Part shown: piece by piece, positions 26,954-31,482 of the stretch
How positions within the stretch are numbered: position 1 is the first letter of the stretch
Layout of the letters: every line of letters begins with the position of its first letter
Assembly (NCBI RefSeq): GCF_028613635.1
Contig: NZ_JAQRMY010000003.1
Span: 136,787-200,786 of the forward strand
DNA: 64,000 nucleotides
Source: Devosia sp. ZB163
Lineage (GTDB): Bacteria > Pseudomonadota > Alphaproteobacteria > Rhizobiales > Devosiaceae
Reading direction: 5' to 3'
Notes under the pieces: generated by a model
Told to the model about the DNA's origin: nothing
The model's database searches: none
What the model saw: only the letters and a program-made list of their open reading frames with translations
Made by a program: the position numbers and the translations under genes

Positions 26954-27577
26954 ATGAATCGCTTCGCAATCGCTCTGCTGGCCGGTGTGGCTGGCGTCTC
27001 GCTGGCTTCGGCTGCTTCGGCCGCTGACCTCATCATCAGCGAGCCCGCTCCGGAAGTCGGCGTCATCCAGACGACCGGCAACTGGGATGGCGTGTACATC
27101 GGCGGCTTCGCCGGTTGGACCGGCGGTGACGTTGATGACGTCGACGGTACGGACGACATCTTCGACATCAATGGCTGGCAGATCGGTGCCGCTCTCGGCG
27201 CCAACTTCTCGGTCGGCAACGGCCTCGTGCTCGGCGTCGTCGGTGACCTCGCCTGGGCCGACATCGGCGATGCCGATGACGTGGAAGACTTCAACGTCGA
27301 CTGGACCGGGTCGCTCCGCGGCAAGCTCGGCTTCGATGGCGGCGCCTTCCTGCCGTACCTGACGGGCGGTCTCGCCGTTGCCCACGCCGACTGGAACGGC
27401 GCCGACAACACGCACCTCGGCTGGACCGTTGGTGCTGGCGTTGAGTTCGCCGTTACCGAAGACGTCTCGCTCGACCTGCTGTACCGCTACTCGGCCTACG
27501 ACGCCCAGGAGTACGCTGCGGTCAACACCGAGTTCCAGACCCACGCCGTCACCGTCGGCGTGAACTGGAAGTTCTAA
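26954..27577 (+). CDS. Omp25/Omp31-like outer-membrane beta-barrel protein (copy 2)
   Basis: A 207-residue barrel, second in the array. Signal peptide MNRFAIALLAGVAGVSLAS to AASAAD; mature chain starts DLIISEPAPE, then TGNWDGVYIGGFAG. The strand pattern GNGLVLGVVGDLAWADIGD, LGFDGGAFLPYLTGGLAVA and LGWTVGAGVEFAVTEDVSL is shared with the other copies; it ends NWKF. Acidic loops (DDVDGTDD) mark this copy. The ATG at 26954 has AGGAG 8 bases upstream; a TTG two codons earlier is not preferred. The upstream gap (26775-26953) contains the palindrome GGGTTAACCC at 26916-26925, a possible operator or CtrA-like half sites. Confidence 0.94.
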   Translation: MNRFAIALLAGVAGVSLASAASAADLIISEPAPEVGVIQTTGNWDGVYIGGFAGWTGGDVDDVDGTDDIFDINGWQIGAALGANFSVGNGLVLGVVGDLAWADIGDADDVEDFNVDWTGSLRGKLGFDGGAFLPYLTGGLAVAHADWNGADNTHLGWTVGAGVEFAVTEDVSLDLLYRYSAYDAQEYAAVNTEFQTHAVTVGVNWKF

Positions 27578-27613: not shown

Positions 27614-27651
27614 CCTCGCCCCGGCATCTGCCGCGGCGGGGCTTCTTTTTT
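27614..27651 (+). terminator. Intrinsic terminator of barrel copy 2
   Basis: GCCCCG and CGGGGC enclose a GC-rich loop with more pairing, followed by TTCTTTTTT. Confidence 0.8.
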
Positions 27652-27822
27652 GCCAGCTCCGTCTGCAGCGGGCCGAAGCACCAGCCGATGCCAGCAGCTC
27701 CCCGGAAACCGCCACCCGGTTTCGTGGTATTGGCGGTGCTGCTTTTTGAGCACCTTGTGGCGGAATTGCCCTTGTCAGCTGCGTGAAACAGTCCCACCTT
27801 TGGGTTCATGTTCAACCAGCAA

Positions 27823-27837
27823 AAAGGAGGTGATCCA
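27823..27837 (+). promoter_or_regulatory. Extended ribosome binding site, 15 bases complementary to the 16S rRNA 3' end
   Basis: AAAGGAGGTGATCCA is the exact reverse complement of the bacterial 16S 3' end TGGATCACCTCCTTT, and it runs up to the base before an ATG (27838). The GGAGG core is 7 bases from that ATG, the best spacing. Normal sites in this window pair over 4-6 bases. Sites of this kind are known before rreB/rreR-type small mRNAs of alphaproteobacteria. Confidence 0.85.
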
Positions 27838-27909
27838 ATGTCTCATACGAAATCGATGGTTTCGAAGGGTCTTGGAGTCTCCGTCAGCTCGGAGCAGCCT
27901 CTGGCCTGA
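27838..27909 (+). CDS. 23-residue small protein or regulatory sORF, rreB/rreR-like
   Basis: A 24-codon frame including the stop encodes MSHTKSMVSKGLGVSVSSEQ then PLA. It is Ser-rich, with no membrane segment or known motif. Its evidence is positional: it starts directly after a 15-base perfect match to the 16S 3' end with ideal spacing, and its transcript is closed by a strong terminator at 27968-28002, with no other gene in between. Alphaproteobacterial small mRNAs with such extended sites (rreB in Bradyrhizobium, rreR in the Rhodobacter group) have been reported to bind 30S subunits tightly and be weakly translated, so the RNA-ribosome contact rather than the peptide may be what matters. 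The peptide differs from anything I know. Whether it is homologous to rreB is inference from layout. Confidence 0.65.
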   Translation: MSHTKSMVSKGLGVSVSSEQPLA

Positions 27910-27967
27910 TCGAAGTCTCATGGCCCCCTGAGGGCAGGAGATCACCTTCGAAGACCAGCGAAATCGG

Positions 27968-28002
27968 GAAGGGTCGCCTCACGGGCGGCCCTTCTTTTTT
28001 TT
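27968..28002 (+). terminator. Intrinsic terminator of the extended-SD small mRNA
   Basis: GAAGGG and CCCTTC flank CGCC/GGCG pairing, followed by eight T. Confidence 0.85.
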
Positions 28003-28046
28003 GCGTCTCGCTCTCGGGCAGGGCAACTGCCCAACCACCAGTTGTC

Positions 28047-28118
28047 ATCCCTGCGAAGGCAGGGACCCATGTCTCCTCACGAACCCTTCTGCGAGAGGAT
28101 CCCTGCCTTCGCAGAGAT
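28047..28118. repeat. Intergenic inverted-repeat element, family B
   Basis: Arms 28047-28065 (ATCCCTGCGAAGGCAGGGA) and 28100-28118 (TCCCTGCCTTCGCAGAGAT) are reverse complements with one mismatch, the same unit as at 11636-11713. The remainder of the 27910-28306 gap holds the terminator above, a GTTAACC/GGTTACC imperfect inverted repeat near 28199-28222, and the ribosome site of the third barrel gene. Confidence 0.78.
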
Positions 28119-28306: not shown

Positions 28307-28969
28307 ATGAACCGTATCTCTCTCATTCTTCTCGCGGGCGCCGCTGTGCTTACCGTGGCTCCGGCTGCCCAGGCGGCTGACCTGCTCATCCAGCAGCCCT
28401 CGATGCCGGGCTTCGTCGACGTCGGCGGTGCCGGCGGCTGGGATGGCGCCTATATCGGCGGCTTCGTCGGCTTTGGCTGGGGCACTGCCACCGATGACCT
28501 GCTCGGCCTCTTCGACAGCGAAGAACTGGAGCTGTCCGGCTGGACCGCCGGCGCCACCCTCGGCGCCAACTTTACCGTCGCGCCTGGCTTCATTCTCGGT
28601 GCAGCCGGCGACCTCGCCTGGTCCGGTGTTGGTGGTTTCGACGACGTGGCCCTCGCCGATTTCGACGTGAACTGGACCGGCGCGCTGCGCGGCCGCGCCG
28701 GCTTCGACGGCGGCGCCTTCATGCCCTACGTGACGGCTGGTCTCGCCTTCGCCGGCGCCACCGCCAGCAATGGTCCGAGCGACAGCACCCAGATGCACTT
28801 CGGCTGGACGGCCGGTGCCGGTGTCGAAGTTGCAGCGACCGACAACATCTCGATCGACCTGCAGTACCGCTATTCGGACTACGGCACGGCCGAGTACGAC
28901 CTGCCGGGCAATCCGGAGATCGACCTCAACACCCATGCCCTCACGGCAGGCGTGAACTTCAAGTTCTGA
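28307..28969 (+). CDS. Omp25/Omp31-like outer-membrane beta-barrel protein (copy 3)
   Basis: A 220-residue barrel, third in the array. Signal peptide MNRISLILLAGAAVLTVAP to AQAAD; the mature chain starts DLLIQQPSMPG and GGWDGAYIGGFVGFGWG. Shared strands include APGFILGAAGDLAWSGVGG, GRAGFDGGAFMPYVTAGLAF and FGWTAGAGVEVAATDNISI; the last residues are NFKF. Compared with the other copies it has a longer first loop (LLGLFDSEELELSG). The ATG at 28307 has TTGGAGG 6 bases upstream; the in-frame extension upstream is not a signal peptide. Confidence 0.94.
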   Translation: MNRISLILLAGAAVLTVAPAAQAADLLIQQPSMPGFVDVGGAGGWDGAYIGGFVGFGWGTATDDLLGLFDSEELELSGWTAGATLGANFTVAPGFILGAAGDLAWSGVGGFDDVALADFDVNWTGALRGRAGFDGGAFMPYVTAGLAFAGATASNGPSDSTQMHFGWTAGAGVEVAATDNISIDLQYRYSDYGTAEYDLPGNPEIDLNTHALTAGVNFKF

Positions 28970-29880: not shown

Positions 29881-31482
29881 ATGCCGATGAACGCCCTGAC
29901 CGCCGCGGCGCCCGCCACCAAACTGCTGCCCTATCAGACGCGCCGGACCTTCGCGATCATCTCGCACCCGGACGCCGGCAAGACCACGCTGACCGAAAAG
30001 CTGCTGGCGTCGTCGGGCGCCATCCAGCAGGCGGGGCAGGTGCGCCACCGCGCCAACCAGCGCGCCACGCGGTCGGACTGGATGGAGATCGAGCGCCAGC
30101 GCGGCATCTCGATCACCTCGTCGGTGATGACCTTCGAGCACCTGGGGCTGACCTTCAACCTGCTCGACACGCCCGGCCACTCGGACTTCTCCGAGGACAC
30201 CTATCGCACGCTGACCGCGGTCGATGCCGCCATCATGGTGATCGACGTCGCCAAGGGCATCGAGGCGCAGACGCTGAAGCTGTTCGAGGTCTGCCGCCTG
30301 CGCGACATCCCGATCATCACCTTCGCCAACAAGGTGGACCGCGAGGGCAAGGACCCGGTGGAGATTCTCGACGAGATCGCCTCCACTCTGGCGCTCGACG
30401 TCTCGCCGGTGGTCTGGCCGCTCGGCGGCGGCGTCGACTTCAAGGGGATCGTCGATCTCACCGCCGGCGTGGTGAAGCGGCCGAACGGCGAAGTGTGGAA
30501 GACCTTCACCAATGTCGATGACCTGTCGCGGGACAACGAATTCGCGACCGATCCGGTGATCATGGCCAGCCTCGAGAATCTCGAACTGGCGCGCGCCGGC
30601 TTCCCCGAATTCGACCACGAGATCTATCTCGCCGGTCACCTGACGCCGGTGATCTTCGGCTCGGCGCTGAAGTCCGTCTCGGTGCCGGAAATGCTGGCAG
30701 CGCTGGGCGCCTGGGCGCCCCAGCCGCGTCCGCAGCCGGCCGAACCCAAGCCGATCGAGCCCAACGATCCCAAGGTTACCGGCTTCGTGTTCAAGGTGCA
30801 GGCGAACATGGACGCCAACCACCGCGACCGCATCGCCTTCGTGCGGCTGAGTTCAGGCATCTTCAAGCGCGGCATGCGGCTGAAGAACGTCCGCACCGGC
30901 AAGGACATGGCGGTTTCGAATCCGATGTTCTTCTTCGGGCACGACCGCGAACTGGCCGAAGAAGCGGTGGCCGGCGACATCGTCGGCATCCCGAACCATG
31001 GCGCGCTCAGCGTTGGCGACACGCTGACCGAAGGCGCCAACATCAAGGTCACGGGCATCCCGAACTTCGCGCCGGAAATCATCCGCCGCGTCCGCCTCAC
31101 CGATCCGATGAAGGCCAAGCAGCTCGCCAAGGCGCTCAGCGACCTCGCCGAAGAGGGCGTGGCGCAGATCTTCCGCCGCATGGTGGGCGCTGACTATATC
31201 GTCGGCGTGGTCGGCCAGCTGCAGCTCGAAGTGCTGCAGAGCCGGATCAACACCGAGTACAACGTGCCGATCAGCTTCGAGGTGATCAACTTCGAGCTCG
31301 CCCGCTGGATCACGTCCACCGACAAGGCCGAGCTCGAGCGCTTCATTTCCACCAACAAGCTCGAGATGGCCGAGGACAAGTACGGCGATCCGGTCTACCT
31401 GGCGCAGTCACCCTGGTGGCTGGCGCGCGCCGAACGGGACTATCCCAAGATTACGTTCCACACGACGAAGGAACGGCACTAG
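29881..31482 (+). CDS. prfC: Peptide chain release factor 3
   Basis: A 533-residue translational GTPase that removes class I release factors from the ribosome after termination. The G1 motif HPDAGKTTLTEKLL is near residues 25-38, the switch region has RGISITSSVM, G3 is DTPGHSDF, and G4 is NKVDRE. The RF3-specific C-terminal domain is present (VVGQLQLEVLQSRINTEYN). Length matches RF3 (about 529 in E. coli). Two ATG codons (29881, 29887) are in frame; the first is listed. It is a single gene with the phosphoesterase gene 9 bases downstream, so the two may share a transcript. Confidence 0.97.
   Translation: MPMNALTAAAPATKLLPYQTRRTFAIISHPDAGKTTLTEKLLASSGAIQQAGQVRHRANQRATRSDWMEIERQRGISITSSVMTFEHLGLTFNLLDTPGHSDFSEDTYRTLTAVDAAIMVIDVAKGIEAQTLKLFEVCRLRDIPIITFANKVDREGKDPVEILDEIASTLALDVSPVVWPLGGGVDFKGIVDLTAGVVKRPNGEVWKTFTNVDDLSRDNEFATDPVIMASLENLELARAGFPEFDHEIYLAGHLTPVIFGSALKSVSVPEMLAALGAWAPQPRPQPAEPKPIEPNDPKVTGFVFKVQANMDANHRDRIAFVRLSSGIFKRGMRLKNVRTGKDMAVSNPMFFFGHDRELAEEAVAGDIVGIPNHGALSVGDTLTEGANIKVTGIPNFAPEIIRRVRLTDPMKAKQLAKALSDLAEEGVAQIFRRMVGADYIVGVVGQLQLEVLQSRINTEYNVPISFEVINFELARWITSTDKAELERFISTNKLEMAEDKYGDPVYLAQSPWWLARAERDYPKITFHTTKERH

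Follow-up and report, generated by a model that had tools for sequence, protein, structure and literature searches.

Small mRNAs of the rreB/rreR type are defined by at least 16 bases complementary to the 3' end of 16S rRNA, placed before a small reading frame. The rreB RNA reportedly co-sediments with the 30S subunit, is weakly translated and is longer-lived once its start codon has been replaced. Both small mRNAs, rreB of Bradyrhizobium and rreR of Rhodobacteraceae, are said to have been described by Hahn et al. in RNA Biol in 2017. The preliminary description of the locus treated here had named them as the only known comparable genes, which was too narrow, as the Rfam family RF01867 (CC2171, a Caulobacter sRNA) is of the same kind; its consensus contains GAAAGGAGGUGAUCCAGUGUCUC. 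Shine-Dalgarno (SD)/anti-SD chemistry is also used by the CCUCCUCCC anti-SD loop small RNAs of Rhizobiales, (PMC3927594); they carry the anti-SD, whereas the RNA discussed here carries the SD itself. Among the matches listed in a literature search, no text on CC2171 or on what rreB and rreR do was found.

Within the window, i.e. the whole stretch of 64,000 nucleotides analysed, an extended SD, AAAGGAGGTGATCCA, lies on the plus strand at 27,823-27,837 and comprises 15 contiguous bases complementary to the 16S 3' tail. No 16S gene was found in this assembly. On the complementary strand, five 16S genes of relatives, three belonging to this family, have AGAAAGGAGGTGATCCAGCC; to these ends the window site matches over exactly 15 bases, compared with the 16 or more of the rreB/rreR type. 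Most relatives add a G at -1, and this G together with a GTG start, which contributes one further base, would give 17 matching bases, the number that rreB is said to have. The ATG at 27,838 directly abuts the site in the window sequence and opens the frame MSHTKSMVSKGLGVSVSSEQPLA (27,838-27,909, plus strand), consisting of 23 codons and a TGA at 27,907-27,909. A predicted intrinsic terminator follows on the plus strand at 27,966-28,002, with a 14-pair stem (27,966-27,996) and then a T run. Genes with Pfam matches to OMP_b-brl flank the small gene at 26,957-27,577 and 28,307-28,969. The exact complement to the 16S end, the ATG directly behind it, the 23-residue frame, the strong terminator and the position between outer-membrane genes had all been claimed beforehand, and all are borne out. 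The 15-mer is present once in the 4.59-Mb genome, with no copies at one mismatch and seven at two; about 0.01 exact copies per genome would be expected by chance, as estimated by hand with uniform base composition.

Upstream of the SD, a CAAC-like element of a conserved type, TCAAC, is located at 27,812-27,816 on the plus strand. The upstream regions of relatives (n=131) display A/C-rich conserved positions from -9 to -4, and in 106 of the 131 the base at -1 is G, matching the 16S tail; in the window the CAAC is one base further up and the -1 base is A. No sigma-70 consensus was found upstream of the site in the window, and TCAAC could possibly represent a -10 region or a 5'-end signal. The terminator scan also returned a second, weak terminator-like site of five pairs at 27,627-27,640, which means little since shuffles average 0.9 such sites. 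Past the terminator and ahead of the next porin gene, an inverted repeat around CCCTGCGAAGGCAGGG ... CCCTGCCTTCGCAG was seen by eye at 28,046-28,110 and resembles a dispersed palindromic element.

A DNA search of the 19 genus genomes detected the gene in 18; the one without it is 82% complete. The copies compared below number 18 and come from 17 genomes, as G004 has two and G017, cut by a contig end, was omitted. Throughout these 18 copies AGGAGGTG is invariant, whereas the exact 15-mer is kept in only 3 of the 19 genomes; the other copies display G-U tolerant or end changes, e.g. AAAGGAGGTGGTCCA, AGAGG... and CAAGG..., and the flanks of the site drift. Conservation of site and frame among relatives, as anticipated in the preliminary description, is thus seen for the gene and not for the perfect site. 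That this is a real small gene of the rreB/rreR kind, conserved in sister species, is upheld. The terminator stem is predicted across the 18 copies, and a few positions have changed on both sides.

Beyond the genus, a covariance model built on the site, the frame and the hairpin (R1), whose training included part of this family, gave matches in 120 of 136 family genomes and in 110 of the 119 good ones. No R1 match was obtained in any of the five genomes of family genus g10 (92-98% complete). The family is inferred to be Devosiaceae, because loci of Devosia equisanguinis, D. indica and Pelagibacterium luteolum carry the same or nearly the same sequence. Forty further family loci, picked by hand, start with ATG (22), GTG (17) or TTG (1) and reach a stop at 81-87; the exact 15-mer is present in 11 of them and GAAGGAGGTGATCCA in 19. 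Of the exact-site loci read (30 of 40 places), five were 16S genes; in all of the remaining 25 the site leads directly into ATG or GTG.

Near the end of the frame, at 27,889-27,904 on the plus strand, a hairpin (TCGGAG-CAGC-CTCTGG) is predicted, and its distance to the SD is almost constant. Of 154 sequences, 87 carry a CA(A/G)(A/C/T) motif 67-77 bases from where the site starts; these 87 were selected only for the motif and its position, and 75 of them retain the first four pairs flanking it. Once duplicate arms are removed, pairing over six positions reaches 90.7% in 27 rreR-like stems, where shuffles average 79.4% and peak at 87.0%, and 94.9% in 33 EQP-type stems, where they average 83.4% and peak at 88.9%. 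In neither group did any of 2000 shuffles come up to the observed value; eight further loci, neither rreR-like nor EQP-type, were set aside. In alignment A2, both-sided changes fill 56 cells compared with 14.6 in shuffles. A2 comprises 60 rows hand-picked from 64 candidates (L007, L033, L054 and L114 were dropped, L033 and L054 having imperfect stems), and its 99.2% pairing is inflated because the weaker stems of L036, L048, L063, L109 and L110 were also left unchosen; the motif-selected and shuffle tests are less biased. Counted from the first base of the stop codon, the loop starts 5-6 bases downstream in rreR-like loci and 9-32 bases upstream in EQP-type loci. A loop that is not CARN, with a stem that can be drawn by eye, is found in L028 and many Devosia loci. 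The hairpin region has the lowest folding energy of four regions tested in rreR-like loci (mean z -1.89), other Devosiaceae (-1.86), MSSE (-1.58) and MSHC loci (-0.84); in the genus of the window it is weak (mean z -0.58), the lowest being the next region downstream (-0.95). Read from the sequences, then, a predicted hairpin with compensatory changes is common to rreR-like genes and this family despite the differing position of the stop.

Other pairings are more restricted. GGTTTCG at 27,858-27,864 may form a long-range stem with CGAAATC at 27,959-27,965, which adjoins the terminator (both plus strand), and can alternatively pair locally with 27,848-27,854. Of seven possible pairs, all seven are retained in 14 of 18 genus copies, six in three and three in G016; the stem is significant in 5 of the 14 genus copies tested (18 in all). 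Counting in order loci with at least six pairs, significant loci, loci with a terminator found and all loci, this clamp of the frame to the 3' end gives 8/8/8/8 for rreB-like loci, 27/19/30/40 for the MSHC group, 13/7/32/36 for other MSSE loci, 9/3/35/40 for other Devosiaceae, 7/5/14/18 for this genus and 5/1/29/36 for rreR-like loci. The rreB-like and MSHC loci thus have strong clamps, whereas those of rreR-like loci and of the genus of the window are weak, and for the window RNA a clamp is put forward just as a possibility. In the minimum-energy fold (whole-fold z -3.59), GATCACC at 27,940-27,946 on the plus strand pairs with SD bases 27,829-27,835. Sequestration of the SD by this element was dropped as a general mechanism, the pairing not being kept in other genus copies. 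SD pairing after the stop beats about 95% of shuffles in 4 of 18 genus copies, including that of the window. CCTCC lies within 70 bases after the stop in 25 of 36 rreR-like loci (GGAGG control 1), 23 of 40 other Devosiaceae (control 1) and 2 of 18 loci of the genus of the window (control 2). For SD duplex energy at a level of 0.05 or below, with 16 of 36 rreR-like and 2 of 40 other Devosiaceae loci, only the rreR-like group stands out.

The 15-mer followed by ATG or GTG is found in at least 116 stretches of named genomes, at least 16 of them outside Alphaproteobacteria and four assigned just to Proteobacteria or Pseudomonadota. Peptides of the MSRxxLERGVGT type are mostly from Rhodobacteraceae, those of the MSxxKRCHLAGIAR type from Bradyrhizobium, those beginning MSHC from Bosea, Methylobacterium and Brevundimonas, among others, and those reading MSSE...EQPS from Rhizobiales and Hyphomonadaceae, among others; we take the first two types to be rreR-like and rreB-like, respectively. 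Longer frames follow the site in at least six loci (L061, L085, L090, L120, L134 and L141). In three of these, from Azospirillum (L085, L120 and L134), the site leads into frames of at least 50 residues with a start that by eye is signal-peptide-like, so the extended site is not confined to tiny frames. A covariance search of the class gave matches in 115 of 385 genomes, many being about 17-39 bases long, i.e. the site alone, and not to be counted as the gene; among 29 new loci from this search, site and start are present in 22 and the pattern is absent in seven.

Similar arrangements were observed in more distant records. In Phycisphaerae, the class of L111, the exact site with GTG occurs in 8 of 198 genomes (L344, L346 and L351-L356), compared with 0 of 198 for a reversed-pattern control. 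One of these records, L353, carries a Bradyrhizobium rreB-like copy and is probably contamination. The other seven precede frames of 6-19 residues, and in several a terminator-like hairpin lies farther on; by eye, L354-L356 have downstream sequence in common. Other planctomycete records (L345, L347 and L348) resemble the Phycisphaerae loci, displaying a similar class in another phylum. L342 (Lujinxingiaceae) and L343 (Myxococcales) have the exact site, GTG and 15-residue frames sharing YTAGEVV(R/H)F. In L349 (SAR92) and L350 (Cellvibrionales) the exact site and GTG are followed, inside the frame, by GGGAGCC-loop-GGCTCCC-TTTT; by eye, this hairpin 8-10 codons after the start, with no earlier stop, has the look of a tiny non-stop RNA.

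On balance we lean towards a stand-alone, ribosome-docking small mRNA of about 180 bases, in which the RNA and the act of translation outweigh the peptide. Transcription would start near the site. The 30S subunit would dock on the 15-base duplex right at the start codon and clear the start slowly, and the short frame would then be translated to its defined stop. The passing ribosome would open the hairpin in the last part of the frame as well as any pairing of the frame with the 3' end, such that the shape and lifetime of the RNA could depend on ribosome engagement, presumably with a coupling to decay. With its ATG outside the duplex, the window member may be better translated than rreB. The ribosome-trapping regulator suggested in the preliminary description is a possible role. 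Against this reading stand the absence of the exact 15-mer from 16 of 19 genus genomes, the g10 genomes without a match, a pN/pS of 0.65 in one subset of copies, the weak hairpin in the genus of the window and the long-range stem, which reaches significance in only 5 of 14 genus copies. The predicted minimum-energy fold of the window RNA would likewise hide the SD, though that pairing is not conserved.

A rather unlikely alternative is that the gene works through its 23-residue peptide, with the strong site just boosting the output. All 18 genus copies have a frame of 22-24 residues, ending in EQPL or EQSL in 17 and in GQSL in one, and all 40 further family loci retain start and stop; the EQP codons, however, coincide with the hairpin, which persists where the reading frame over the motif is shifted by one (L021, L027 and L029) and where it lies at or after the stop, as in rreR. 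From codon 2 onward, the 18 copies give pS 0.244 and pN 0.236, a ratio of 0.97. Of two subsets drawn by sequence, one of ten copies gives pS 0.131 and pN 0.140 (1.07), whereas the other, of eight, gives pS 0.282 and pN 0.185 (0.65), possibly reflecting mild amino-acid constraint. A ratio near 1 is a weak test here because pS is low; in prfC, compared across 16 genus genomes, pS is 0.377 and pN 0.093, and 4 of 102 23-codon windows have a pS as low as that of the small frame. Silent sites are thus constrained about as much as replacement sites, and the synonymous-site comparison proposed in the preliminary description also points to constraint on the RNA. At the amino-acid level, little or no constraint is detected in the peptide, a result with which a peptide role is still compatible. 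Subfamily peptides look by eye unrelated beyond their first residues, the 23-residue peptide has no Pfam match, and selection probably does not act mainly on its sequence. The stop itself is another matter: 36 of 36 rreR-like frames stop at base 69 (TAG 20, TGA 8, TAA 8) and none has TGG there, the chance of which, C(16,8)/C(36,8) for 8 loci with G at the second and 16 with A at the third position, is by hand about 4e-4, ignoring relatedness. From these three stop codons and the missing TGG, translation to a defined stop is probably selected.

Selection of a stop codon would be needless in a decoy RNA that titrates 30S subunits or lowers initiation generally. The long complementarity to the 16S tail would suit such a decoy, as would the terminator-like hairpin of the gammaproteobacterial L349 and L350, with no stop before it; but a cell holds thousands of ribosomes against a single gene copy, and the flanks of the site drift within the genus, all of which makes a decoy unlikely. 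Still less probable is a leader peptide with an attenuator for a downstream gene, here prfC (release factor RF3; 29,881-31,482, on the plus strand as is the small gene, downstream of the OMP_b-brl genes) or a porin gene. Leader frame, terminator and gene do follow in that order, and among the matches listed prfC is the usual downstream gene in the genus, at varying distance. It is the next matched gene in 7 of 18 genus loci (G002, G013, G010, G007, G018, G005 and G004a), where the distance from the site to its open frame is 85-238 bases and the gene proper starts later (about 373 in G005). Porin genes, however, intervene in the window and six other genus loci; G016 has no gene of the window within the stretch read, and G004b is cut by a contig end. 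Among 141 loci, which include three of the genus and many with just 1.5 kb of flank, prfC is near five, namely one genus member and four of Microvirga (L098, L117, L129 and L143), and in the latter it is upstream and divergent rather than on the same strand and downstream. The neighbours are different in other genera. An upstream gene is shared by 22 loci, the 14 listed all being rreR-like, and an FMN riboswitch lies just downstream in four loci of genera g7 and g16. No shared neighbour gene was found across the lineages examined, and with neighbours differing elsewhere a stand-alone unit fits best; a prfC attenuator was dropped as the general reading. Finally, a chance site in an intergenic region, for which nothing speaks except that the site is single in the genome, is extremely improbable given matches in 120 of 136 family and 18 of 19 genus genomes where about 0.01 exact sites are expected per genome.

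The ribosome-docking reading could be extended, although we hold this broader view to be doubtful, to all extended-SD small mRNAs. Together these would form a single broad class of ribosome-anchored regulatory RNAs that can do without their peptide, change shape when a ribosome docks or passes and so report the capacity for translation initiation or termination. If so, this broad class would be present in most genomes of the family and spread over Alphaproteobacteria, and the look-alikes in Planctomycetes, Myxococcota and Cellvibrionales would belong to the same picture. Apart from this, a kind of gene that has hardly been studied occurs in the majority of genomes of one bacterial family, and a testable RNA element links rreR-like genes with this lineage, both being grouped with an Rfam sRNA. 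The analysis makes a start on telling apart what the RNA and what the peptide are worth. With a long SD duplex and a start and stop that are kept while amino acids hardly are, the gene offers a clean model of what an mRNA gains from holding a ribosome.

Compared with the described systems, the window gene displays the rreB/rreR-type layout of a short frame at the site and a terminator. It resembles rreR in that an extended SD immediately precedes the short frame and a CARN-loop hairpin follows at almost the same spacing, about 70-76 bases from the SD start, a feature recognised in the present analysis. It differs in that rreR has an 18-codon frame with another peptide, its stop just before the loop and, in 35 of 36 rreR-like loci, a GTG start, so that the match takes in the G of the start codon; the window encodes the 23-residue MSHTKSMVSKGLGVSVSSEQPLA, which is not of the MSRxxLERGVGT type. 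Consistent with the likeness, a covariance model trained on both kinds finds both in genomes outside its training set, i.e. rreR-like L273, L275 and L278 and EQP-like L274, L276 and L285. With rreB the window shares the extended SD, the short frame and, as a possibility in the window, pairing of the frame with the pre-terminator region (8 of 8 rreB-like loci); the rreB frame, however, has 14 residues, a GTG start and another peptide (the window lacks the MSxxKRCHLAGIAR type), and there is no CARN-loop hairpin at that place. The window scores 35.8 bits with the CC2171 model, below the gathering cut-off of 75 and with many model pairs unformed, which is weak evidence of homology since much of the score comes from the site itself. 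The cut-off is exceeded by loci of this kind from Bosea, Brevundimonas and Methylobacterium; of the four MSH-type loci tested, three pass (88.5, 86.1 and 81 bits) and L103 falls short at 65.1. Of 12 other loci, 11 match at 29.6-59 bits and L315 gives no match, and another 19 all match over the whole model at 29.7-70.2 bits, below the cut-off. The gene is a conserved member of a known, poorly understood kind that includes rreB, rreR and CC2171, and the new points added here are the hairpin and the RNA-level constraint.
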